From a virus, in the IMG/VR virus record IMGVR_UViG_3300036770_008697, positions 1 through 23,923 of that record: DNA of 23,923 bases; one strand, written 5' to 3'. The notes beneath the pieces were generated by a model. The model searched no databases. It worked only from the letters and a program-made list of their open reading frames with translations, and was not told the origin of the DNA. Positions 1,704 to 19,749 of this stretch are shown here, piece by piece. Positions within the stretch are counted from its first letter, which is position 1, and each line of letters begins with the position of its first letter. Position numbers and translations under genes: made by a program.

Positions 1704-2155
1704 CAGGCCTCCTTGTTACTGCGCAGGCCAAAGAAAGCCGGTCCATTCCAACGAGTGCCGGTGATTTTGCGGGCAATGGCAGACAAGGATTTATAGCTTT
1801 GCCCTTGGTATATGAAGCCATTTTCCGAGACCAGAACCTCATGCAAGTCACCCTGGAACTCACGAATCAGCTTGGTGCCGGCCAAAGGTTTAACAGCCAT
1901 ATAGTGATTGGTGAACTTTTTACCTTTCTCCATTTGATCGGCTAAATTATCCAGCTGCTTTGCTGACTTTTCAGCCATAGGGCCATAAGCAAGCTCTTGC
2001 AGGCGATAAGCCAACCTTGGGATAAGATAGGTTTTAGAATGAGGCGGCGCATCCGTATCAAAGATACTACGCCACAATTCTTTAAGTTCTGCGGTGCTTT
2101 TACTTTGCAAAGCCAGAACTTGCTTAATAACAGATTCTTTCATGTTCTTGACCAT
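1703..2155 (-). CDS. DUF2924 family protein
   Basis: 150 residues. The C-terminal half carries the family signature: LAGTKLIREFQGDLHEVLV (91-109), the FIYQGQSYKSLSAIARKITG stretch (114-133) and GTRWNGPAFFGL (133-144). DUF2924 genes are known to lie next to large serine recombinases in alphaproteobacteria and their phages; the biochemical role is unknown. An accessory function in recombination or recombinase control is inferred from this pairing. The gene is translationally coupled to the recombinase by a one-base overlap. At its 5' end it overlaps the preceding hypothetical ORF by 32 bases. No strong Shine-Dalgarno sequence is visible before the ATG at 2155, and Met5 (2143) is an alternative start. 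Confidence 0.9.
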   Translation of the reverse strand: MVKNMKESVIKQVLALQSKSTAELKELWRSIFDTDAPPHSKTYLIPRLAYRLQELAYGPMAEKSAKQLDNLADQMEKGKKFTNHYMAVKPLAGTKLIREFQGDLHEVLVSENGFIYQGQSYKSLSAIARKITGTRWNGPAFFGLRSNKEA

Positions 2156-2501
2156 AATTAGTTTTCTCTAACAAACCTGCTCTAGAAGCGCTTCCTTTTG
2201 AAGGGAAGTCAAGAGAAATTTTCTCTGAAAGCCTTGATTTATCTAGGTTTTTACTAGATTGCGCGCGTACAATTGCTGTAGCGATAATATGTGCAACTTC
2301 TTTTAGGCGATCATAGTTTTGGGCTGTGGTGAACTGCATACGGAACCTCATCTGATTGGTATGTGGGTTATTTACAGCTTCCGGAGAGATTTCGTTCACA
2401 AGAACTTCATAGTCCCCCTCTAAGAAATAGAGAGTTGGTAGGCGTGAGGAGCGATGTGTACAAACTCGTACATGAGCGACGAACAACACACCAACTCTCA
2501 T
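2124..2501 (-). CDS. Hypothetical protein upstream of DUF2924
   Basis: 125 residues, not recognised. The middle (about 30-82) reads like a folded protein: a strand-rich YEVLVNEISPEA followed by RFRMQFTTAQNYDRL and a helix KEVAHIIATAIVRAQ. The tail after about residue 83 is polar and Ser/Lys-rich. No membrane segment or zinc ligands are seen. It is the first gene of the leftward integration module and overlaps the DUF2924 gene by 32 bases, so the two are probably co-transcribed. No good ribosome-binding site precedes the ATG at 2501, so the true start may be further downstream. The position beside the repressor operator means the LexA-like protein could also control it. Existence is likely but not certain. 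Confidence 0.55.
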   Translation of the reverse strand: MRVGVLFVAHVRVCTHRSSRLPTLYFLEGDYEVLVNEISPEAVNNPHTNQMRFRMQFTTAQNYDRLKEVAHIIATAIVRAQSSKNLDKSRLSEKISLDFPSKGSASRAGLLEKTNYGQEHERICY

Positions 2502-2527
2502 TTATCAGAGGGGGGTTACAATAGCTC

Positions 2528-2557
2528 TTGACTAACCTAACGCTTGTTAGGTATGAT
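2528..2557 (+). promoter_or_regulatory. Promoter of the lexA-like operon with an operator palindrome in the spacer
   Basis: TTGACT (2528-2533), an 18-base spacer and TATGAT (2552-2557) form a near-consensus sigma-70 promoter, with transcription expected to start near 2564 and the repressor ATG at 2581. The spacer contains the perfect inverted repeat ACCTAAC-GCTT-GTTAGGT (2535-2552). A dimeric repressor bound here would block RNA polymerase. The natural candidate is the LexA-like protein encoded directly downstream (autoregulation), which is inference. The half-site differs from the classical alphaproteobacterial GTTC-N7-GTTC box and the enterobacterial CTGT-N8-ACAG box. The site also lies between divergent genes and could affect the leftward integration module. 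Confidence 0.75.
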
Positions 2558-2580
2558 AAAGTTAAGTTAAATTTTAGGAT

Positions 2581-3291
2581 ATGAGGTTCAACTACAAAGC
2601 AATGGAAAACCTTAAGAAAACCAAACCGGGTCCCGTTAAGTCCGTAGGGCTGACCAAGGCTCAAGAGGACACCTTTTCTGTTATTTGCCGTCTTAAAGAG
2701 CAGCATGGTGTTGCTCCTACAGTGCGGGAAATTGCAGCTGAGCGTGGCGTTTCTGCCGTATCAGCGCTGGAGATTATTCAGCAGCTGGAGGCTAAAGGTT
2801 ATTTGCGTCGAGGTCATGGAAAAGCTCGCGCCATTGAAATCTTGGATCAACCCCTAAAGTCAGATCAAATTCCGCATATTGTGCCTATTCAAGTGATAGG
2901 TCGTGTGGCGGCAGGATATCCGATTTTAGCGATTCAGGATGATTTGGGTGAGTTTTGCTTGGATTCGGCTCTTGCACGCGGTGATTGCTTTGCGCTGCAA
3001 ATTTGTGGGGATAGCATGATTGGTATCGGCATTCATGACAAAGATTATGTTGTGGTCCGGTCTCAGCCCACTGCGATGAATGGTGAGGTTGTGGTGGCTC
3101 TGATTGATGAGGAAGCGACCTGCAAAACCTTTTATCAAACTTTAACCGGTGTGGAACTTCGGCCTGAAAATCCGGAGCATGAGGTCATCCATGTCAAAAA
3201 GGGCCAAGATTTAAGGATTCTTGGGAAAGTGATTGCAATTAGAAAAACAGTGGAGGTTAAAACGAATGCTGCAAATGGTGTTAAACAATGA
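2581..3291 (+). CDS. LexA-like repressor, S24 self-cleaving family
   Basis: 236 residues. The N-terminal LexA-type winged helix (about 24-88) includes VAPTVREIAAERGVSAVSALEIIQQL; the C-terminal S24 peptidase domain covers about 99-225. Key residues are visible: the Ala111-Gly112 cleavage site in RVAAGYPI, nucleophile Ser145 in CGDSM and general base Lys182 in ATCKTF. Such repressors bind DNA as dimers and cleave themselves when RecA is activated by DNA damage. Here it most likely maintains lysogeny and controls the two following genes, and probably binds the palindrome in its own promoter. The first ATG (2581) has AGGA almost touching it; Met8 (2602) is an alternative start. The 3' end overlaps the next gene by 26 bases. 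It could be a phage CI-equivalent rather than a cellular LexA; the sequence fits a LexA architecture. Confidence 0.92.
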   Translation: MRFNYKAMENLKKTKPGPVKSVGLTKAQEDTFSVICRLKEQHGVAPTVREIAAERGVSAVSALEIIQQLEAKGYLRRGHGKARAIEILDQPLKSDQIPHIVPIQVIGRVAAGYPILAIQDDLGEFCLDSALARGDCFALQICGDSMIGIGIHDKDYVVVRSQPTAMNGEVVVALIDEEATCKTFYQTLTGVELRPENPEHEVIHVKKGQDLRILGKVIAIRKTVEVKTNAANGVKQ

Positions 3292-4522
3292 AGTGCTGAT
3301 GGCCAAGATCCATCCGAATCGTGAATTTTGGGAGAGTCATCTGGAAATGCCCCTTGATAGGCTGATCCAGGATTACCAAGATGCTAAGATTCGTAAAGAT
3401 TGGCTCGATTCCCTATCAGGACGCCAGCTTGGCCTGTTGTTTGACCTATCCATGCAAAAACCTCCCCATGAACTTTCCGTGCAGCAAATGCGCAAGACTT
3501 TAACTGACTTTCCTGAAGAATTGCTCAATTATTTTCTGGTTCACCATTTTAACCACGCCAAACTTGAAGCTGCTATCACTGAAATTGCAAAGCCTGTTCT
3601 TTCCCCTGAAACCATGGCCAAGCTACTGGTCAAAGACGATAAATATGACAAGAAAGGCATGCTATTTGCTCTCTTTAAAGCTGATCCTGAATTGCTCAAG
3701 CATGTGTACCATTTTGATAAGGTGCAAAAGAAAGGGTTTGGCTCCTTTGTGCTGAAAAACCCGCCGCGCCAACCTGCTGTTTCTTTCAAAGAATTTGCAA
3801 TCGAAGATGTGGTTAGGTCTGCTCTTAAAGCACATGATGAAGAGCAAAATGACAGTTTTGAGACTCATCTTCAGGGTTTGTTTTATCATGAAGATCGTTT
3901 GTATTTGTTTATCCGCAGAGCCAGTGATGAAGATTTGCTGTTAAGCTCTAACCGCATTATTCATGGCCATAAGCCGGATTGGATTATCCTGGATTTTGCT
4001 GCAAATGCTAATCAAGTGAATCTTTGTGCCAAATGCTCCAACCAAGGATTGAAAATAGCCGATCGTTTGGTAAGTTCTTACTTCGATAAAGACTGCTCCT
4101 TCATCAACATGCAGGATTACAATTTTGCTGCTCAAGTGAAGACTTTCTTGCGGTCGTGCGCAAGTGAAATTGATAAGGAAATCAAACTCTTTGAACTCAA
4201 ATTTAGATCTGCTCACCTTAAAAACAACACTCATCTGATTTTAACAACGCACCCGACTGACCCTATTGCGGAAGAGCTTGAAGCGCTGCACCAGGCCGTT
4301 GGTGATGTACTGGATGATATTGCCATGATCGATTCAGTAAGAGTGGTGTTTCAAGGAAAAAAGGTAACCCTGTTTTTCAGGGTGGATGCGTCTGATCCGG
4401 GTCATGTTATGATTTGTTATTCAGAATATGTGTTGGATAAAAAGGGACGCTCAGCTTTTAAAACATGGATGAAGGATTGCTATGGCCTTACGATCTTGCC
4501 TAAAGCAAAATGCTGCGCATGA
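3266..4522 (+). CDS. Unknown protein A of the lexA-like operon
   Basis: 418 residues, no family recognised. I chose the ATG at 3266 because GGAGG lies 9 bases upstream; an upstream in-frame start at 3233 would lie deeper inside the repressor gene. Residues 1-190 look mostly helical and charged (for example FPEELLNYFLVHHFNHAKLE). Residues about 195-400 look alpha/beta, with predicted strands such as RLYLFIRR, PDWIILDFA, HLILTTHP and KVTLFFRVD, and a CxxC pair at Cys254 and Cys257. No Walker, nuclease or HTH motif stands out. The gene overlaps the repressor by 26 bases and the next gene by 41 bases, so it sits in a tightly coupled three-gene operon. DNA-damage control through the LexA-like protein is inferred. 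The location between integrase and replication modules is where phages often carry cargo genes. Confidence 0.85.
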   Translation: MLQMVLNNEVLMAKIHPNREFWESHLEMPLDRLIQDYQDAKIRKDWLDSLSGRQLGLLFDLSMQKPPHELSVQQMRKTLTDFPEELLNYFLVHHFNHAKLEAAITEIAKPVLSPETMAKLLVKDDKYDKKGMLFALFKADPELLKHVYHFDKVQKKGFGSFVLKNPPRQPAVSFKEFAIEDVVRSALKAHDEEQNDSFETHLQGLFYHEDRLYLFIRRASDEDLLLSSNRIIHGHKPDWIILDFAANANQVNLCAKCSNQGLKIADRLVSSYFDKDCSFINMQDYNFAAQVKTFLRSCASEIDKEIKLFELKFRSAHLKNNTHLILTTHPTDPIAEELEALHQAVGDVLDDIAMIDSVRVVFQGKKVTLFFRVDASDPGHVMICYSEYVLDKKGRSAFKTWMKDCYGLTILPKAKCCA

Positions 4523-5621
4523 AGATGCCTTGCAAGCTTTGCTTGAGGCCAGCAATTCATGGATCAACCCAAATCAGGTTTATCTAGAGGCGGCTTATCA
4601 TCTTGGAGAGCTTGGCTTTATCCAGCTTAAAGAACATTATTTTATAAAATGCGCCAATCCTTTAGATGCGTTGGATTTTGACAGTCTAATCAATCCAGAT
4701 TGCGAGAACAAAATCCCACTCCCTGATGATTTTGATGAATCCTGTGATGATCTGATCTGCGAAGAATGCGGTCGTTACATCTTACCGATCACCCAACAAA
4801 AACAACGTTTTCATGTCGTGTCTCTATCCCTACAAAAGCAGGCTATAGTGAAGTGGTTTGAGGCAGAACTGAGAGAGCTTGTATTTAAGAATCCTAGTGC
4901 CGGCGTTTATCATGTGCTACTCGATAACGGATTCGTGACTGTGATCTTGCCTGATTTTATCGATAACCCTTCATATTTAGCTTTAGAACGACTCAAAGCG
5001 CAGCCGACACTAATTATTACACTACGAAAAACCTTACCGCACTTGCCGCTTGATGTGCATGCTATAAAATTATCGGATTTCATCAATGGCAATCTCTCTT
5101 TACAGCAAGGTTTGAATATGGCGATGGAGCATGGCGTACCAAAAGAGATCCCAAACGTTTCAAGGCAAATATTGCCTTTTGTGTCGCTTCACACACAAAA
5201 ACCAGCAGCACTTCCTGCAACCTACAGCATCACCATTGATAGTGAGGGTATTTTTGTTGGCGGCATTCATGTCATTGGCAAACAAGCGCCAAGCCGTATT
5301 CAAATTTTTAGGATTTTACTGGAGCAATATTGGCGAGATTTTGAAGAAGGAAAACCTAAAGAAATGCACACACCGCTTAATTTACATCAAATTGCTGAGC
5401 GCCTGGAGCCACATATGGGATTGATTGATGATTTAGAACAGCAAATCCGAAGGCCACTTAATAAAATGCAAAAGGCTATTGAAGAGACTCTGGCCAAAGA
5501 GCTGGGCGTTAATATTAAACGTGATGATATCATTCAAACCCTTGGCTGGCCTGGGTTTAAAAAGCAGGAATATGGATATCGGCTCAACCCTTTCAATCTG
5601 GTTTTTACAAAACATAGCTGA
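4482..5621 (+). CDS. Unknown protein B with C-terminal OmpR-type winged helix
   Basis: 379 residues. Four parts are visible: a helical N-terminus (1-60) that may be a small winged helix; a Cys-rich knuckle with CEEC (Cys93, Cys96) plus Cys74 and Cys88; an alpha/beta middle (about 110-215); and a C-terminal segment (about 248-370) that looks like an OmpR/PhoB DNA-binding winged helix. That last segment has an initial beta-sheet (YSITIDSEGIFVGGIHVIGK), a helix with RIQIFRILLEQY, a recognition-helix-like LIDDLEQQIRRPLNKMQKAI and the closing EYGYRLNP hairpin. No receiver domain is present. It starts 41 bases inside gene A, with AAGGA 5 bases before the ATG, so the two products are probably made together. 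A regulator or sensor partner for protein A is the best inference. Confidence 0.85.
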   Translation: MALRSCLKQNAAHEDALQALLEASNSWINPNQVYLEAAYHLGELGFIQLKEHYFIKCANPLDALDFDSLINPDCENKIPLPDDFDESCDDLICEECGRYILPITQQKQRFHVVSLSLQKQAIVKWFEAELRELVFKNPSAGVYHVLLDNGFVTVILPDFIDNPSYLALERLKAQPTLIITLRKTLPHLPLDVHAIKLSDFINGNLSLQQGLNMAMEHGVPKEIPNVSRQILPFVSLHTQKPAALPATYSITIDSEGIFVGGIHVIGKQAPSRIQIFRILLEQYWRDFEEGKPKEMHTPLNLHQIAERLEPHMGLIDDLEQQIRRPLNKMQKAIEETLAKELGVNIKRDDIIQTLGWPGFKKQEYGYRLNPFNLVFTKHS

Positions 5622-5717
5622 CTCCTATAATCTGGTTATGCGTCACTACGTCGCTTATGTACTTTTAGTACACTTCGCTCCTCGTTCCTATAACCAAATT
5701 AAATTAGTTCAGCTATA
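5613..5717. repeat. Long imperfect palindrome between convergent operons, possible two-way terminator
   Basis: The arms 5613-5639 and 5690-5717 are inverted copies with a few mismatches (for example ATCTGGTTAT against ATAACCAAAT, and CATAGCTGA against TCAGCTATA). A second small hairpin, TGTACT-TTT-AGTACA, sits in the middle near 5659-5673. The element begins over the stop codon of the rightward gene and ends at the stop codon of the leftward primase gene. Folding in either direction would give a large stem, so a bidirectional terminator is plausible, although no clean T-run follows. It could instead be a copy of a dispersed palindromic repeat. Confidence 0.6.
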
Positions 5718-5718
5718 G

Positions 5719-7908
5719 CTAATCATGATAAAACCAAAGTGAAGGATTTTCTAAAGGGATAATCGTCCCATCTTCAGCAGACTTATAATGGGTTGGTAAA
5801 ATAGGCTGAAAATGGCTGGTTTCTTCGCCTGTTTCAGGATCAACCTTTGTTTCTTTTAAATCCATAGCCTCCACACATAAGAAGCCATATTTTGATTTGC
5901 GGACTGCGGTTTTACAGAATTTGATATAGCCTTTGGTGGCAAGTACATCAATGCGGTCGCGAATGGAATGCTGACCGCCAAGGCCTGACCTATTTTCAAA
6001 GGCTCTGCAGAACTGACTTGCGGTATAAAGCTTGCCTTTGCGTGCCTCATCGTAAATCAGCTGCAAAATAATATCGTGTTTGCGCCGGCGCTCTGCATCC
6101 AACTTTTCACCGTAATGCTTATTCACCAAACGCTCTGATTCTTCTTCGAGTACCGACCATTTGCCGGCTATTTTATCGACCCACTTATTATCAATGCGCT
6201 CACCGTTGCGCAGTTCAAAAATCAATTGCCGCGGTGTTTTGGTTTCATCGGGTCTAAAGAGAATAATACCGGTGGTATAAAAACCTCTGAGGGCGCCGGC
6301 ACCACTCAATGATTGAAAAGGATCTTCTTCCAAAAGCTTCTTGGTAATCTTTTTAGTATGATGAGCAACAATCATCCCAGCATTAGGATTCACCAAATGA
6401 CGCAGTCGTTCCAATCTCTCTTGCAGGAAAAACAACATGGCGTTGTTATCATTTTCTGTGCCGTGATCTCCCGCATCAAAGATGTTACGCAAAGGGTCAA
6501 TCACAATGAGGTCGAGGGTTTTTGGATCAAAAAAGTCATTAATGGTTTGTACAATCTGCGTAATGCCTTCATCATTGAGTAACATTCTGGTTTGAGGCGT
6601 GATCACTAGATTATTGCTCATTTGCTCGAGCACGTCAGGATCAAGCTCCAGTTGTTTAAGACGTTCACGCAAATAATGGTAGCCAATCTCTGTTTGTAGA
6701 TAAAAAATCTTCAAGGGCTTTGCGGGTTGCATTCCCAAAAAATGTTTGCCTGCTGCCATATGCACAAGCCAGCTGATAAGAAAATCGCTTTTTCCAACTT
6801 TGGGTGCACCACCAAAAATCAACAGCCCACCGGGTGTTACGATACGCGGGGCAATCACATCGCAAGGCATGGGGGAATCATCCTGTAGTAATTGCCCCAA
6901 GGTAAAAGCCGGGACCATCTTATTAACGCTGACTGTCTTTTTCGGGCAAAGATCGATAAAATTCTCTAAATCAACGCCTTCTGCATCAGAATCTGCTGCG
7001 TCATAACCTAAAGGCTTATCCTCAGGAATCTGAAGAATTTGAATAGATGCTAGCCCTAAGTTTTTGAGTTTTAATGACACTTTATCGGCATATTGTCGGC
7101 CTGGCTCATCATGATCCGGCCAAATGATCACATGTTTGTTTTTAAGCGGCTCCCAATCTGTTTTATCAATGGGTGCATTGGCGCCAAACATCGCAGTGGT
7201 TGCAGTAATGCCATGTTTAATGAGGCTATCTGCTGATTTTTCCCCCTCAACAAGCACAACTGTTTTAGCTTTTAAGATGCCTGGGATATTGTAAAGCGGC
7301 CTTGGGTTTGGCGCCCGATTACGGCAGGTTTTAACGTCCCATGGTCTATATTGCTTACCGGAATCTGTTTCATAGCGATAAACGCAGGCAATCAATTTGT
7401 TTGCTTCATCAAAGTAATCCCATCTGGCTGTGGGAGCCCCGAGCAGCTCAGGTCCTTCTTCCTCTTGCGTAGCCTCGTGCTTTTTCTTAATTTCATAAAC
7501 CATAGCATATACGCTTTTAGTTCGCTCACCAGACCACTGAGCAATATCAGCTAAAATTTCAGGAAATTGAGAACGTGTATCTTTGCCCGTGACCGCTGCC
7601 CATAAACTGATAATGTCACCTCCTTCACCGGTTGCAAAATCATGCCACATACCGATGCGATTACCTTCAAGCTCGACAACTAAGCTTTGGCCGGGATTAC
7701 CTTGCACATCACCCACATAAAACTTATTGCGCTGGAAAACGCCGCCCGGCAGCAAATAGGATAAGCAGGATTTAAGGCTGTAGAGTAATCTGGCTTTTAG
7801 CTCTGACACTTGTTCTGATGGCTCCCAAGGTGATGCGCTTTCAAAGCAGTTCTGTGGGATGGCTGTGTTGAAGTTAAAGAAATCCTTCATATCAATGACA
7901 TTGCTCAT
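5719..7908 (-). CDS. Toprim primase / RepA-type replicative helicase fusion
   Basis: 729 residues. The N-terminal part (about 30-150) resembles the DNA-binding region of phage primases but lacks a CxxC zinc ribbon. The Toprim domain (about 214-300) has VVLVEGEKSAD with Glu221 and the DHD motif (Asp265, Asp267). A RecA-fold ATPase of the RepA/AAA_25 type (about 335-565) has Walker A GGAPKVGKS (366-374), Walker B LDLIVID ending at Asp471 and AHHTKK (515-520). The C-terminal region (about 600-690) may be a winged helix. Known relatives prime and unwind DNA at phage or plasmid origins. GGAG lies 7-8 bases before the ATG, and the start overlaps the nuclease stop as ATGA. It is the last gene of the leftward early operon and the likely user of the repeat-rich origin candidate near 13.2 kb. 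Confidence 0.92.
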   Translation of the reverse strand: MSNVIDMKDFFNFNTAIPQNCFESASPWEPSEQVSELKARLLYSLKSCLSYLLPGGVFQRNKFYVGDVQGNPGQSLVVELEGNRIGMWHDFATGEGGDIISLWAAVTGKDTRSQFPEILADIAQWSGERTKSVYAMVYEIKKKHEATQEEEGPELLGAPTARWDYFDEANKLIACVYRYETDSGKQYRPWDVKTCRNRAPNPRPLYNIPGILKAKTVVLVEGEKSADSLIKHGITATTAMFGANAPIDKTDWEPLKNKHVIIWPDHDEPGRQYADKVSLKLKNLGLASIQILQIPEDKPLGYDAADSDAEGVDLENFIDLCPKKTVSVNKMVPAFTLGQLLQDDSPMPCDVIAPRIVTPGGLLIFGGAPKVGKSDFLISWLVHMAAGKHFLGMQPAKPLKIFYLQTEIGYHYLRERLKQLELDPDVLEQMSNNLVITPQTRMLLNDEGITQIVQTINDFFDPKTLDLIVIDPLRNIFDAGDHGTENDNNAMLFFLQERLERLRHLVNPNAGMIVAHHTKKITKKLLEEDPFQSLSGAGALRGFYTTGIILFRPDETKTPRQLIFELRNGERIDNKWVDKIAGKWSVLEEESERLVNKHYGEKLDAERRRKHDIILQLIYDEARKGKLYTASQFCRAFENRSGLGGQHSIRDRIDVLATKGYIKFCKTAVRKSKYGFLCVEAMDLKETKVDPETGEETSHFQPILPTHYKSAEDGTIIPLENPSLWFYHD

Positions 7909-8609
7909 AGGCTCACTCCAAAACAGGCTTTATGGTAAGGGCACCATTTGCACTCAAAGTAATTGGGATCTTGGCTTAAACGCGGCAATAGCTCAGAAGC
8001 GCTTGATGCTTGTAATATTTGCACGGCGCGATCGGAGTATTTTTGCGCCACAGCCCCATCAAAAGCTACCCACTCAAAATAAAGCTCTGAAGTATCTTTA
8101 TTGAGCGCCACCAATAAGGCCGGCGCTTCTGTTAGCTGCATATAAGCCATATAAAGCTGAATTTGCACGTAGTAGCCTGGCTTGCTTACAGCCAGTCCAT
8201 GCTTTTCAAGGTCTTTCCAGGATTTATTATTAAGCGTTTTGCACTCAAAAAGTGCCGGATAGATAAATCCTTCAGGACCGGCTACAATCACGCCGTCAAT
8301 ATGCCCGGCTATGCGGTCACCTGCGACTGAAAAGCTATATTGCTGGCCGTCTTTATTGTGAGTTCTGATATCAAACCCGGCATCTTTCATCCATGAGATC
8401 ACTAACGATTCCAGATGATGACCCATTGCAAAAGTCCGCAGCTGCCTGCCGGTAAAAGGCTGATCCGCTTCTGCGCCCATAAATTCATACTGCAATTTAC
8501 GCGCGCAATTTTCCCCTAAACGCGAAGCACCAAGATATGATCTTTTTGGCTTTTGCTGGTGCTCACGCGCAATAGCGCTATCCAGCATCGCTGCTAATTT
8601 ATTTTCCAT
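7905..8609 (-). CDS. Cas4/RecB-like PD-(D/E)XK exonuclease with probable Fe-S cluster
   Basis: Numbering from the upstream ATG at 8621 (238 residues); I prefer the ATG at 8609 (234 residues) because GAGGCAGGTC precedes it. The nuclease core shows GHHLE (67-71), Asp109 in GHIDG, Glu126-Cys-Lys128 (FECK) and the QxxxY helix (Gln153-Tyr157). Four cysteines placed as in Cas4 and AddB nucleases, Cys39 and Cys224/Cys227/Cys233 (FECKWCPYHKAC), suggest a 4Fe-4S cluster. The family degrades or resects DNA ends. Beside a Sak4-like ATPase and a DUF669-like ssDNA-binding protein, it probably makes the single strands for phage recombination; no adjacent cas1 or cas2 is present, so a CRISPR role is unlikely. 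ATGA overlap with the primase gene. Confidence 0.88.
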   Translation of the reverse strand: MENKLAAMLDSAIAREHQQKPKRSYLGASRLGENCARKLQYEFMGAEADQPFTGRQLRTFAMGHHLESLVISWMKDAGFDIRTHNKDGQQYSFSVAGDRIAGHIDGVIVAGPEGFIYPALFECKTLNNKSWKDLEKHGLAVSKPGYYVQIQLYMAYMQLTEAPALLVALNKDTSELYFEWVAFDGAVAQKYSDRAVQILQASSASELLPRLSQDPNYFECKWCPYHKACFGVSL

Positions 8610-8823
8610 GACCTGCCTCATCTATGATTTGGCACCATTTGATTAAATCAGCGACGGTAAGGCTTCCGATAGGCGCTGCCAGATTCGCGTGTTTCGCCAG
8701 ATGATTGAAGAGGACCAGAGCATTCTTGGGGGCGTTTCGGATAATATGAATCGGGACGGAAGTAACACTCCCTTTGTTCCGGTTGGAATCGTGTGAATCG
8801 CTTCCGCCAGCTGCTAAAGGCAT
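8599..8823 (-). CDS. Small ORF overlapping the zinc-ribbon ORF in another frame
   Basis: In this frame the reading extends back to an ATG at 8976, but the part before about 8823 looks like a shadow of the zinc-ribbon gene. From the ATG at 8823 it would give 74 residues. The C-terminal half (VPIHIIRNAPKNALVLF, then KHANL, SLTVADLIKWCQIIDEAG) has the helical pattern of a genuine protein. Its stop overlaps the nuclease start. Either it is a separate small protein, or it is the true C-terminus of the zinc-ribbon gene reached through a frameshift near 8800-8820. No function is known. Confidence 0.4.
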   Translation of the reverse strand: MPLAAGGSDSHDSNRNKGSVTSVPIHIIRNAPKNALVLFNHLAKHANLAAPIGSLTVADLIKWCQIIDEAGHGK

Positions 8824-8966: not shown

Positions 8967-9218
8967 TTATGACCATTTGAGTACCTTTTGAAGATGTTGA
9001 ATATTTTTCGTCATGAGCGCTTTGAAGAAGTGATCGCGTACTGCATCTGGATCAAGCTCGGCAAGATCACAAACAAAGCAAAAAGACTGAGGTGATTTTT
9101 GAAAAAACCAGCGCATCGCTTGGTGCCTATAGAGGCTGGAATCTGTGCATCCAAAGGCATCCCGTGCGGCTCTATCAATCACAGCCCGCCATAGTAGTAT
9201 TTCTCCTGTAACGTTCAT
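8967..9218 (-). CDS. Small conserved phage protein (WRAVID type)
   Basis: 83 residues. LWRAVIDRAARDAFG (9-23) followed by a helix with AMRWFFQ (34-40) and FCFVCDLAELDPDAVR (46-61) matches a short protein repeatedly found in replication regions of proteobacterial phages (pattern WRAVI..A..DA, W-F, VCDLAGLDP..VR). Its function is not established. GGAG lies 7 bases before the ATG, within the end of the upstream Hint/LAGLIDADG gene, and the two overlap by ATGA. It is all-helical and soluble, without a metal site. The family assignment is from memory; no function is claimed. Confidence 0.8.
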   Translation of the reverse strand: MNVTGEILLWRAVIDRAARDAFGCTDSSLYRHQAMRWFFQKSPQSFCFVCDLAELDPDAVRDHFFKALMTKNIQHLQKVLKWS

Positions 9219-10258
9219 GGCTGCTCTCCTTGCATCACCATGAAGTCAGATTTCAGGTAAAGGCTATTCGACCCTTGTAAAACCAACTTCAGACATTGCT
9301 GCGCAGGTAGCGGATGCACGGTAAATCCAGTGCGAAGAACATGGCGTTTTTGCACCCTTGGCCCCGGAATTTTACGCCCCACGCGAAGTGGGATGTCTTT
9401 GAAAGCACCATAAATGCAAAAGCGGTAATAGATTTGCCCCTCAACGGTTCGCTCTTTAGGAAGCGCCATCAAACCCAAGCTTTGGGCCACAAACGCAATA
9501 TCTTGGGCGAGTTGCTTACTTGAAGTCGTATACTCAAAGGTTTTGTGGAGCATGTGACCATCTGTATCAAGCAACCCTGCCAAAATCTCTTGTCGTACTT
9601 TTTGAGAAGCACGCTTATAGATGTCCGGGATAAACTTTTCCGGTGAGCTTTTGTTGTATAAACCAAGGTTGCGCAAAGCATCAGTCAGTGGGTTGGTTTT
9701 TCCGCTTATACTGCTAAAATAATAGCCATTAGCTTGATTCCCCGGGATTTGATCGATACGCACCGAAAGCCCCATTTGATCGGCCATCATAAAGCAATAA
9801 TCCACAATCTCAGGATCGGGCGTGGTAATGCTTGGTGAGGTATTACGAAAACAGCCATCACCAAGTAAAATGCCTAAGAAATAGGGATCAAGCGGCAGAG
9901 CCGGCCCGTCACTAAAATTCACAGGCATGCGGTATAGCAAATGCACACCCTTAAAATGCGGTGATTGCTTGAGGTATTCCCACATCGGAATAGATTTCAG
10001 GTCATAAAGATCAAGGCTTGTGGAGCGCACCAACGGCAAAGATTGGCTGGCACCTAAAAGAAATGACGCTCCCTTAATCGGTCTGATTTCAAAGGCATCT
10101 TCTACAGATGTTCTGATATCAATTACCGTTCGTGGCAGGCTATCTGCACCCATGATTTCATCGCCTACTTCAATGGTTGTAATTGGCTTTATTGCACCAC
10201 TTGCCATCAGAATATCGATGGGCTGAGGTGAGGTTTTTGGAGGATGATGTCGTGTCAT
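9215..10258 (-). CDS. Stand-alone Hint-like / LAGLIDADG homing endonuclease protein
   Basis: 347 residues with intein-like order but no exteins. An N-terminal Hint-like half (about 13-78) has IDILMASGAIKPITTIEVGDEIMGAD and FLLGASQSLPL. Two LAGLIDADG helices follow, FLGILLGDG (127-135) and ILAGLLDTDG (225-234), both with the acidic metal-binding residue. A C-terminal Hint-like strand pair has TGFTVHPL and DFMVMQ (338-343). Splicing residues are missing: no Cys or Ser at the Hint start, Gln instead of the block B His (GASQSLPL), and MVMQ where inteins have His-Asn. It therefore should not splice. It has its own AGGAGG 6 bases before the ATG, so it is a real independent gene. Homing nuclease activity or a recruited regulatory role are both possible. 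It sits between the ssDNA-binding gene and a small gene in the early operon. Confidence 0.85.
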   Translation of the reverse strand: MTRHHPPKTSPQPIDILMASGAIKPITTIEVGDEIMGADSLPRTVIDIRTSVEDAFEIRPIKGASFLLGASQSLPLVRSTSLDLYDLKSIPMWEYLKQSPHFKGVHLLYRMPVNFSDGPALPLDPYFLGILLGDGCFRNTSPSITTPDPEIVDYCFMMADQMGLSVRIDQIPGNQANGYYFSSISGKTNPLTDALRNLGLYNKSSPEKFIPDIYKRASQKVRQEILAGLLDTDGHMLHKTFEYTTSSKQLAQDIAFVAQSLGLMALPKERTVEGQIYYRFCIYGAFKDIPLRVGRKIPGPRVQKRHVLRTGFTVHPLPAQQCLKLVLQGSNSLYLKSDFMVMQGEQP

Positions 10259-12219: not shown

Positions 12220-12795
12220 TTATATTCCGCATTGGGGAAAAAATTGTTCGCACCTTCTGATGTAAACAGACGTGGGAAAAAACATCGGCCGCATGAGCTC
12301 TAAATCCCGGTAAATGGCGGCTCTTGAACGACCACTCATGTGCGATACTTCCGTGATCGTGAAAATCTTGAGCTGCTCACAAAGCGCTTGAAAGCTTTCC
12401 GGCAATTGATCAATCGCCTTACTCACATCAATGCGGATGCTAACGGCGTCCTCAAAGCAGTGATCATCAGCCAAATAATCCATGAGGGTCTGGCCGTTCT
12501 CATCTTCTTGATCCAAAGATAGGGTCTGGGTTTTGCCACCCCGTTTGATGCACATTTGCTTGTGAATCAAATTGTTGCTGCGACGGGTAAGAAGTTTATC
12601 GACAAAGGTTGCAAGACTACTTTTTGAGCGGTCGAACTTGGATAAAGCCGGCCAAATCTCAAGCAGCAAGTCTTGTTCAATGTCCTCTATTTCCTGGGAT
12701 TCAAAGCATTTCATTTGCTTTAAGCGCCAGGCATGGTATTTCAGTTGTTTGACAATCTCAGGCTCTAAACCTGAGTAGTTATTACGTGATCTCAT
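12220..12795 (-). CDS. Sigma-70-family phage regulator
   Basis: 191 residues from the ATG at 12795, preferred over 12819 because AAGGAGG sits 6 bases upstream. A region 2-like helical bundle (about 14-80) contains EIEDIEQDLLLEIWPALSKFD and SLATFVDKLLTRRSNNLI. A region 4-like HTH (about 125-172) contains AIDQLPESFQALCEQL and ITEVSHMSGRSRAAIYRDLELM. This is the layout of ECF-like sigma factors, which direct RNA polymerase to specific promoters. As first gene of the leftward early operon, next to the repeat-rich non-coding region, it could redirect transcription to phage promoters. It is shorter and more divergent in region 2 than cellular sigma factors, so a sigma-like transcription regulator is the safe wording. 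Confidence 0.8.
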   Translation of the reverse strand: MRSRNNYSGLEPEIVKQLKYHAWRLKQMKCFESQEIEDIEQDLLLEIWPALSKFDRSKSSLATFVDKLLTRRSNNLIHKQMCIKRGGKTQTLSLDQEDENGQTLMDYLADDHCFEDAVSIRIDVSKAIDQLPESFQALCEQLKIFTITEVSHMSGRSRAAIYRDLELMRPMFFPTSVYIRRCEQFFPQCGI

Positions 12796-12925
12796 ATGAA
12801 GCCTCCTTGATTGGTTCATGCTTCAAGGATGCGATTTTTGGCGGTTTTTCTGACCGGACGCGCCTAAATCAAATAAGACCGCGGGCAATGTAAGGGCCTG
12901 GAAATAAGCCCACTCAAAAACAAAG

Positions 12926-18182: not shown

Positions 18183-19382
18183 TCAGATGCCGGAGTTTTT
18201 GCGAATCGTACGAAAAGCCTCCCCAATATTTTTGGTTTGTATTGCAGAAACGCCAACTTCACCTGCAAAAGCATCCCATTTTTGGGTGGCAGCTAAAACC
18301 TGATCAATAATCTCTAATGCCTTGTCTTGCTTAATACCTACGGTACCGGCTAGTTTTAATAAATGGTTTTTTGTAGGATTTTTCCCTTCGCCCATAATCA
18401 TCGTCGAATGCTCGCCCGCAGGGCCTGAGGAAAAAGTTAAATCGTACGCAGGCGATACAGTCCAGTTACCTTGTGCGTCCATTAAAAATGAAAAATTCTT
18501 TGAATGATCATCTCGATTATGACTTAAGACATTAAAAACCGCATTTCTAAATTGAATTTCGCACTGTCTGATATCTTTTGTTAAATACAGTGTTGCTTTC
18601 ATGATGCTTTCATAATCAAGGGAAGGCTCCCGGTGATCGGCATGGAGGAGACCTGCAATTGTATGCATATGAATACGGCTATCACCATTTCTATCAAATC
18701 GCTTAACTCCAAAAAAACCTAAGCCCTTTCGGGATGGAAAAAGCTTTGCTTCAGGTACAATCAAACCAGCATCAATTGCCATAAGGTGATAGGCGTATTC
18801 GATAGCGCTTATATCTTTAGGGTCAAGGTGAGATCTAAACTTAATCAGCCAATCCACGCCATCAATATTAAGCAATACTTTAGGACGCGCTCCCGCCGAA
18901 GATCCTCCTAAAATCAGCAAATCCTCAACATAATCATCATTTTCATCTAAGGTTGCTTGTATTTCGCTATCAATTTCATCTAAATCATTGGTGATATGAG
19001 ACATAGCGCTTGAATTTTCAGGCTCATAAGACAAAGCTCCCATACCGCTTGTTCCTACAAAACAAAGGCGATCTAGAGGTGAAAGGCTTCCGGGATTAAG
19101 TCCTACATTCATCAATTTGCGGTCTAGGAGTAACCGACCCCAGCCATCAGGCAAGCTGTCATTAAAGACGCCAAACAACCCTTCAAAGGTGCGATCATTC
19201 GATTCTATGACACCTGCTTTAAGCGGTAGCTTGAAAGGCGATAACTCAAGACCGGTTTTGATAAAATCAGCATCATATTCAAAAAATATTTGCCTGTTTT
19301 TAAGCAATAACCTTCCTGTGAGCTGCTTCTCCCCTGAGCCATGATAATATACATAAACAAGATTTTGATTTGAGAATCTCAT
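18183..19382 (-). CDS. hipA: HipA-family serine/threonine kinase toxin
   Basis: 399 residues. An N-terminal subdomain (about 8-105) includes FGVFNDSLPDGWGRLLLDRKL. A kinase core has the P-loop-like GGSSAGARPK (159-168), Lys181 (WLIKF), the catalytic loop HNRDDHSKNFSF (288-299) with catalytic Asp291 and Asn296, and the metal-binding YDLT (Asp314). E. coli HipA phosphorylates glutamyl-tRNA synthetase and induces growth arrest and persistence; the target here is unknown. All key residues are present, so it is probably active. It overlaps the HipB gene by ATGA. It runs against the late genes between terL and gpW, so it is a cargo (moron) pair probably expressed from the prophage. Phage exclusion or lysogen stabilisation are plausible roles. 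Confidence 0.92.
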   Translation of the reverse strand: MRFSNQNLVYVYYHGSGEKQLTGRLLLKNRQIFFEYDADFIKTGLELSPFKLPLKAGVIESNDRTFEGLFGVFNDSLPDGWGRLLLDRKLMNVGLNPGSLSPLDRLCFVGTSGMGALSYEPENSSAMSHITNDLDEIDSEIQATLDENDDYVEDLLILGGSSAGARPKVLLNIDGVDWLIKFRSHLDPKDISAIEYAYHLMAIDAGLIVPEAKLFPSRKGLGFFGVKRFDRNGDSRIHMHTIAGLLHADHREPSLDYESIMKATLYLTKDIRQCEIQFRNAVFNVLSHNRDDHSKNFSFLMDAQGNWTVSPAYDLTFSSGPAGEHSTMIMGEGKNPTKNHLLKLAGTVGIKQDKALEIIDQVLAATQKWDAFAGEVGVSAIQTKNIGEAFRTIRKNSGI

Positions 19383-19684
19383 TTTCTACCTCTTTTTCTT
19401 TTTCCATTTTCCAGAAGATCATCAAGCGATAAGGCTTCTTCAGCGCTTTTAAGTGCAAACAACCCGCTAAAATCATCCATACACCCAAGTATCACGGCCA
19501 GCTTCAGCAAAGATTCCAACGATATTTGTCCTGTTTGCTCAAACTTTTTTAAAGAGCCATAACTAACCCCGGACTTTTCTGATAAGGTCTGCTGACTTAA
19601 ATTGAGTTCAAGCCGAAGGTCACGCGCTCTACTTGCTACCCTCTTTTGCATTTCACTTGGCGTCATCATGTTAACTGATATCAT
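19379..19684 (-). CDS. hipB: HipB-like antitoxin, XRE family
   Basis: 101 residues from the ATG at 19684. The in-frame ATG at 19711 is rejected because it lies inside the -10/operator region, whereas AAGGGA sits just before 19684. A Cro/CI-type HTH (about 13-67) contains RARDLRLELNLSQQTLSEKSGVSYGSLKKFEQTG. The C-terminal tail (about 75-101) is acidic, then basic (NGKRKRGRK). HipB-type proteins bind HipA and repress their own operon. The ATGA overlap with hipA gives coupled synthesis. The operator palindrome over its promoter supports autoregulation. Confidence 0.88.
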   Translation of the reverse strand: MISVNMMTPSEMQKRVASRARDLRLELNLSQQTLSEKSGVSYGSLKKFEQTGQISLESLLKLAVILGCMDDFSGLFALKSAEEALSLDDLLENGKRKRGRK

Positions 19685-19709
19685 AATATCCCTTAAATCT
19701 CCAAAACCC

Positions 19710-19749
19710 ATATAATAGATATTATATTATCTTTTAAGTTACAAGTCAA
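19710..19749 (-). promoter_or_regulatory. hipBA promoter with overlapping operator
   Basis: Read leftward: TTGACT (plus-strand 19744-19749), a 17-base spacer and TATAAT (plus-strand 19721-19726), a near-perfect sigma-70 promoter. The palindrome ATATAAT-AGAT-ATTATAT (19710-19727) covers the -10 and the start region, a suitable operator for the HipB-like protein. Transcription would start near 19714, about 30 bases before the preferred hipB start. Confidence 0.75.

Follow-up and report, generated by a model that had tools for sequence, protein, structure and literature searches.

WO-PC1 gene pair in a LexA-headed operon of a WO-like phage: distribution, predicted folds and a possible role at prophage induction

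The viral record IMGVR_UViG_3300036770_008697 of IMG/VR (positions 1 to 23,923; this whole stretch of 23,923 nucleotides is called the window below) contains a three-gene operon in which a LexA-like repressor gene is followed by two overlapping genes, here named A and B. Their products are homologs of WO-PC1, a conserved two-protein cluster of Wolbachia phage WO. Judged by its gene content, the window belongs to the Holospora-type relatives of phage WO, for which the genus Undavirus (family Symbioviridae) has been proposed. Structure prediction indicates that protein A likely joins a helical domain to one of RdgC-like fold, as in RdgC, lambda RexA and CENP-L/N, and suggests that the module is probably active as the phage leaves dormancy to replicate. 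The locus may represent the operon by which a temperate WO-like phage of the Undavirus group controls its prophage switch, a best reading that, with all its parts taken jointly, we regard as evenly poised between right and wrong. The A–B pair as WO-PC1, without a function, and LexA as an Undavirus gene were already known (PMC9203015); new here are the wide spread of the pair, its interchangeable upstream gene, the predicted RdgC-like protein A, the invariant cysteine site and domains of protein B, and the conserved operator. The features discussed are as follows.

2528–2557, plus strand: sigma-70-type promoter of lexA-A-B, with −35 TTGACT at 2528–2533, an 18-nt spacer and −10 TATGAT at 2552–2557
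2536–2551, no strand assigned: predicted operator palindrome CCTAAC-N4-GTTAGG with conserved arms, filling the promoter spacer
2581–3291, plus strand: lexA, LexA-like S24 autocleaving repressor, 236 aa (TIGR00498, Pfam S24, LexA_DNA_bind)
3266–4522, plus strand: protein A, 418 aa, first protein of WO-PC1, WOcauB gp2 family, phrog_21102
3320–3730, plus strand: N-terminal helical domain of A in the predicted model, residues 19–155
3716–4498, plus strand: putative RdgC/CENP-N-like domain of A, residues about 151–411, from the VIA-align match to RdgC
4471–4476, plus strand: Shine-Dalgarno sequence GAAGGA of B, read from the sequence within the 3′ end of A
4482–5621, plus strand: protein B, 379 aa, second protein of WO-PC1, WOcauB gp3 family, phrog_25990, matching gp9 of phage WO
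4650–4769, plus strand: four-cysteine, putative zinc site of B (C57, C74, C93, C96), invariant in 24/24 aligned members
4803–5132, plus strand: alpha/beta domain of B, residues 108–217, weakly resembling PD-(D/E)XK, E-x-K motif absent
5223–5618, plus strand: C-terminal OmpR-type winged helix of B, residues 248–379, VIA match to BaeR

Identity and distribution of the A–B pair

Among named phages, only Wolbachia phage WO carries homologs of A and B. On KY695239 they match at 1950–3101 and 3106–4176, coinciding with the intervals listed for gp2 (1906–3104) and gp3 (3070–4179) of WOcauB2 (Table 2 of PMC5447182), and the order of the neighborhood agrees. In 2022 gp2–gp3 of WOcauB3 were named WO-PC1 and described as hypothetical proteins without a function (PMC9203015). 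The cluster is recognized by adjacent gp2 and gp3 homologs lying between the recombinase and the replication module, and by sequence A and B show exactly this arrangement. Both proteins share 38–49% identity, in the same order, with gp2–gp3 of WOcauB2/WOcauB3 and with gp10–gp9 of WO AB036666 (45% between A and gp10). The WO genes overlap by 35 bases and, as here, are placed between recombinase and replication genes in sr1WO; however, the window pair is preceded in its operon by LexA, whereas the WO pair has no preceding repressor.

These matches overturn two suggestions of the original prediction, which was made from the letters alone: the pair is not undescribed, being a conserved phage cluster catalogued without a function, and it is not element-specific cargo, as WO-PC1 belongs to the core recombinase–replication region of WO-like phages and occurs in many other Pseudomonadota prophages. 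A clear match to a known phage module had been named as the result that would count against novelty; such a match exists as far as identity is concerned, but the module itself came with no known function. Searches of A and B against Pfam, NCBIfam, PADLOC and PDB sequences gave nothing above cut-off, also when they were run as 13-member families (Pfam, PDB), yet each protein is matched along its whole length by a PHROG family of unknown function (A, phrog_21102, E 4e-213; B, phrog_25990, E 5e-191).

The pair recurs far beyond WO, in Pseudomonadota prophages and viral contigs. Profile searches, in which class and phylum counts include fragments, found it in 7–8 of the 217 genomes of the order of a Wolbachia genome, in three of ten genomes of the Holospora order, and in 4/385 and 9/398 genomes of the class and phylum samples, respectively; several IMG/VR contigs carry it at 28–32% identity. 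In about 30 loci, with or without lexA, its order and overlap are kept. Wherever both genes are intact, A precedes B on the same strand and overlaps it by 35–80 bases, or by 4 in one clade. A search for plasmid-borne copies of A found none. The recurrent neighbors are DUF2924 and a serine recombinase on one side and a sigma factor, Gam-like, AAA_24, p196, primase/helicase and YqaJ genes on the other.

The gene directly upstream of A varies among the members in which it could be assigned. It is LexA in the window, in Holospora and in loci L092 and L060; in L090 and L091 (and, by gene sizes alone, in L094) it is an IrrE/M78 peptidase that is itself preceded by an XRE-type regulator; and no repressor stands there in Wolbachia. 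The pair is therefore what stays constant, and the repressor is what can be exchanged. Among close relatives dN/dS is 0.05–0.07 for A and 0.06–0.11 for B, indicating that both are real, constrained proteins. Distances of A and B over 23 loci are correlated with r = 0.98, which is expected of linked genes and is therefore weak evidence for an interaction between the two products. Two side observations concern copy number and decay. The genome G615 holds three near-identical A–B copies, and the neighborhoods of L091 and L094 share their gene layout before A. In Holospora obtusa (L014) and H. curviuscula (L017), A is frame-disrupted or decayed, with B open over its full length in the former and partly in the latter.

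In Holospora prophages and close viral contigs, A and B are 89–96% identical to those of the window and stand in the same operon; HOObt1-type prophages share both the lexA-A-B operon and its operator. For Undavirus, known from Holospora and aquatic samples, LexA and YqaJ are given as its genes (PMC9203015), and the window encodes both LexA (2581–3291) and a YqaJ-type nuclease (7905–8621). The genus is also marked by a lack of ankyrin and eukaryotic association genes, and none of the window proteins scanned matched ankyrin, in a record that is partial (23.9 kb) and ends within a capsid gene. The modules with the GH108 endolysin and the PAAR protein, two further markers of the genus, do not fall within this record. 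A gpA-type terminase and a lambda-type portal are encoded as well.

Predicted architecture of proteins A and B

The model of A, built from a 13-sequence alignment (pLDDT 84, pTM 0.77), has helices at residues 19–155 and an alpha/beta part at 159–411, the succession already proposed from the sequence. A Foldseek search of the PDB with this model placed E. coli RdgC on top (E 3.4e-5, probability 1.00), followed by CENP-N and CENP-L. Its hits among viral models include proteins of Xanthomonas phage FoX4 (1.4e-5), Hafnia phage Enc34 (2.8e-4), ct8Hx23 (3.9e-4) and Serratia phage JS26 (2e-3), all annotated as RdgC or recombination-associated. VIA-align superposed A on RdgC with Z 7.3 and 212 aligned positions over model residues 151–409; its best rows for A were those of CENP-N, weak ones at Z 8–9 and 5–6 Å rmsd. 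Z values of 7.3–9 lie partly in the range that unrelated models reach, and the tool warns of this range, so that the RdgC-type fold of A is likely rather than proven. The moderate structural scores point to a differing domain arrangement.

CENP-N and CENP-L (Chl4/Iml3) are eukaryotic kinetochore proteins, and their structural likeness to A is weak. CENP-N consists of a helical N-terminal part and an RdgC-like core, the same gross arrangement as in the model of A. Chl4/Iml3 have been reported to resemble RdgC (PMC4080450), so the CENP-N/L matches of A agree with the RdgC match. From RdgC itself (PF04381), with which residues 151–409 have the fold in common by prediction, A differs in lacking a sequence match (0/13 members match PF04381) and in having an extra N-terminal helical domain, a fixed partner and a phage context. 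The CxxC of A (C254/C257), which the original prediction had singled out, is confined to close relatives and unconserved; a metal site at these residues was rejected on the same ground.

Protein B was modeled with pLDDT 80 and pTM 0.49. A small domain at the N-terminus is followed by a segment rich in cysteine, an alpha/beta domain and, last, the OmpR-type winged helix; together with the alignment, the model supports the domain order first proposed, including the missing receiver domain. Cysteines C57, C74, C93 and C96 are invariant in all 24 aligned members, C88 being variable, and the four probably bind zinc. The winged helix matches BaeR above all other rows (VIA Z 9.2, 98 residues aligned, rmsd 3.0). 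Foldseek gave nothing for B at E ≤ 0.001. For residues 120–216 the VIA rows (VC1899, Z 5.5; Bax1, Z 5.3–5.4) are below the noise threshold and the E-x-K motif is missing, and we discarded the idea of an active nuclease. Profile comparison gave no signal between B and RdgC, nor between A and B. The winged helix also occurs without the rest of B: WOVitA1 has it as a stand-alone 159-aa gene (L007, 5905–6384), and one genome of the Rickettsiales order has it at two places. The WOVitA1 group (sr2WO) has been scored as being without WO-PC1 (PMC9203015).

Operon control and the possible role of the pair

The repressor matches TIGR00498 with 166 bits (cut-off 111), as well as Pfam S24 and LexA_DNA_bind. 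Its cleavage residues are all present (the Ala111–Gly112 pair, Ser145 and Lys182), and by sequence it is autocleavage-competent; the original prediction had recognized both the S24 repressor and these residues. The open reading frame coordinates also agree with the overlaps it gave, 26 bases between lexA and A (3266–3291) and 41 between A and B (4482–4522). The ATG of A at 3266 has a GGAGG Shine-Dalgarno sequence 9 nt upstream and that of B follows GAAGGA, which makes the starts that create the overlaps credible.

Ten of the twelve consensus positions match in the promoter, and L092 and every Holospora-type relative have the −35, operator and −10 in the same order. The window contains a single copy of the palindrome. 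Its arms are invariant and its N4 variable in six Holospora-type loci (the window, L002, L013, L014, L016 and L093) and in L092, where LexA is just 56% identical and the other upstream DNA has diverged. L060, with a LexA 44% identical, has a different palindrome. CCTAAC-N4-GTTAGG is thus the probable site of the LexA-like repressor, in the place expected of an autorepressor.

In its layout the operon resembles lambda cI-rexA-rexB. In both operons an autocleaving repressor comes first and an RdgC-fold protein next, by prediction for A and by crystal structure for RexA (PMC11077077). The lambda repressor is of the CI type and that of the window of the LexA type; A has an extra helical domain and no detectable sequence similarity to RexA, and its predicted likeness to RexA runs via RdgC. 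The third genes differ as well: B is by prediction a soluble zinc/winged-helix protein without a transmembrane segment, whereas RexB is a four-helix membrane protein (maximum 19-residue hydropathy 1.32 for B and 2.39 for RexB). RexA, encoded beside cI, is a non-specific DNA binder that tips the lambda switch towards lytic growth, and RdgC lowers strand exchange by RecA as well as the cleavage of LexA that depends on RecA (PMC11077077).

We hypothesize that the repressor, bound to the palindrome between −35 and −10, would repress its own promoter and hence the whole of lexA-A-B. DNA damage would activate host RecA (recA is encoded in 13/13 carrier genomes tested), and self-cleavage of the repressor under such SOS control would raise the production of A and B. 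A may then be a DNA-gripping protein with little sequence preference, probably a dimer or in complex with B, its zinc-stabilized DNA-binding partner, whose winged helix could direct A to certain sites. As the prophage passes into lytic growth, the two may modulate RecA-dependent recombination and LexA cleavage, and/or assist the adjoining phage recombination and replication genes. The predicted RdgC/RexA-type fold, the LexA or XRE/IrrE switch and the recombination neighbors are together most simply explained by action on DNA at prophage induction, and in several non-Wolbachia members a repressor of some kind stands directly upstream. The original prediction is supported in three points: the single operon controlled by a LexA-type switch, the strong coupling of A and B, and a probable part in regulating the phage. 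The combined picture, a DNA-binding pair released at induction that modulates recombination or replication and the lytic switch, would in our view be right about half of the time.

Several results weigh against this picture. The structural scores of A are moderate (VIA Z 7.3 for RdgC and 8–9 for CENP-N, TM about 0.3–0.4), and neither A nor B is strongly basic. No sequence-profile link was found from A to RdgC (23 sequences) or to lambda RexA, with hhalign probabilities of about 0 (0.2% for RdgC); however, RdgC and RexA likewise gave no signal with each other, so the test has no power here. Wolbachia keeps the pair without LexA, and SOS control is therefore not general. WOVitA1, of a WO subgroup, has lost A and retains just the winged helix of B, which argues against a strict interdependence of the two as a universal rule.

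Other explanations overlap with this one, and the confidence we attach to each is to be read with that in mind. A–B may be a replication/recombination factor proper, for example an origin-binding B with A as accessory clamp, forming the first unit of the early region rather than tuning a switch. Primase/helicase, AAA_24, Gam-like and YqaJ genes always adjoin the pair where the contig is long enough, in L060–L066 and L085–L091 it is co-directional with sigma-factor and recombination genes, Wolbachia retains it without a repressor, and RdgC itself is a recombination protein (PMC11077077). However, transcription of the pair runs towards the primase block in WO and Undavirus, not with it, and the sr2WO phage WOVitA1 retains its replication genes without A, which is thus not strictly needed; we treat this explanation as a tentative one that deserves attention. 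It is somewhat more doubtful that B regulates transcription of the divergent recombinase or early operon, with A as co-regulator and DNA gripping incidental to it. The OmpR-type winged helix and the four-Cys site would suit such a regulator, as would the fact that the winged helix persists by itself in WOVitA1 and at the two places in a genome of the Rickettsiales order, but the sole conserved palindrome found is that of the lexA promoter, in a single copy in the window, and the RdgC-like fold predicted for A would be unusual in a co-regulator.

Prophage exclusion, a superinfection defense analogous to RexA–RexB, shares the predicted RexA-type fold and the cI-adjacent position with a known system, yet B has no transmembrane segment, PADLOC gave only a chance-level match to Cmr1 (E 0.013), and in the loci seen the pair is core and never loose cargo. 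We consider exclusion improbable. For the defense role offered in the original prediction no family match was found, and nothing supports a lysis function.

A bolder extension of the DNA-binding, induction-linked reading is speculative, and we rather doubt it: A–B would be a separate phage-borne lineage of the RdgC/RexA/CENP-L-N fold and a fixed two-protein complex, in which A shares the helical domain and core with CENP-N and B is a zinc-dependent, sequence-specific loader, the whole being a widely distributed module for the lysogeny switch or for recombination that is combined with repressors of unrelated kinds (LexA, XRE/IrrE).

Wolbachia is a symbiont with uses in the control of insects, and WO-PC1, a conserved cluster of its phages, previously had no functional lead. 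The predicted RdgC/RexA-type fold and DNA-binding partner give it a testable hypothesis, namely RecA modulation or tuning of the prophage switch. They also suggest that the lambda arrangement, in which an RdgC-fold protein is encoded behind a repressor, recurs with varied repressors and second partners, and that the fold common to RdgC and the inner-kinetochore CENP-L/N may have a phage relative.

Flanking repeats and other genes of the window

Two related palindromic intergenic repeats, at 2412–2520 and 5622–5716, flank lexA-A-B and share the core GAGGAGCGAWGTGTAC...GTACATRAGCGACG. Both are absent at the corresponding places in Holospora relatives, including the HOObt1-type prophages, and have the look of miniature repeats that moved recently. 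The first has a much stronger fold than its shuffles (z −4.6). A 17-base core of the repeat at 5649 had no exact match in IMG/VR, and no RNA family was found in the window.

An ECF/sigma-70-region-2-like factor encoded at 12220–12819, possibly a phage-specific sigma factor, is kept in most A–B loci and in non-WO members adjoins the pair on the same strand. Between phage genes at 9215–10258 lies a gene for a free-standing Hint and LAGLIDADG homing-endonuclease protein, which is full length in L092 and L093, split over two frames in Holospora undulata (L013) and H. obtusa (L014), and without a match in the Wolbachia WO loci examined. At 18183–19711, on the opposite strand and between the terminase and portal genes, the window carries a HipA kinase gene together with a small upstream open reading frame in a HipB-like position.

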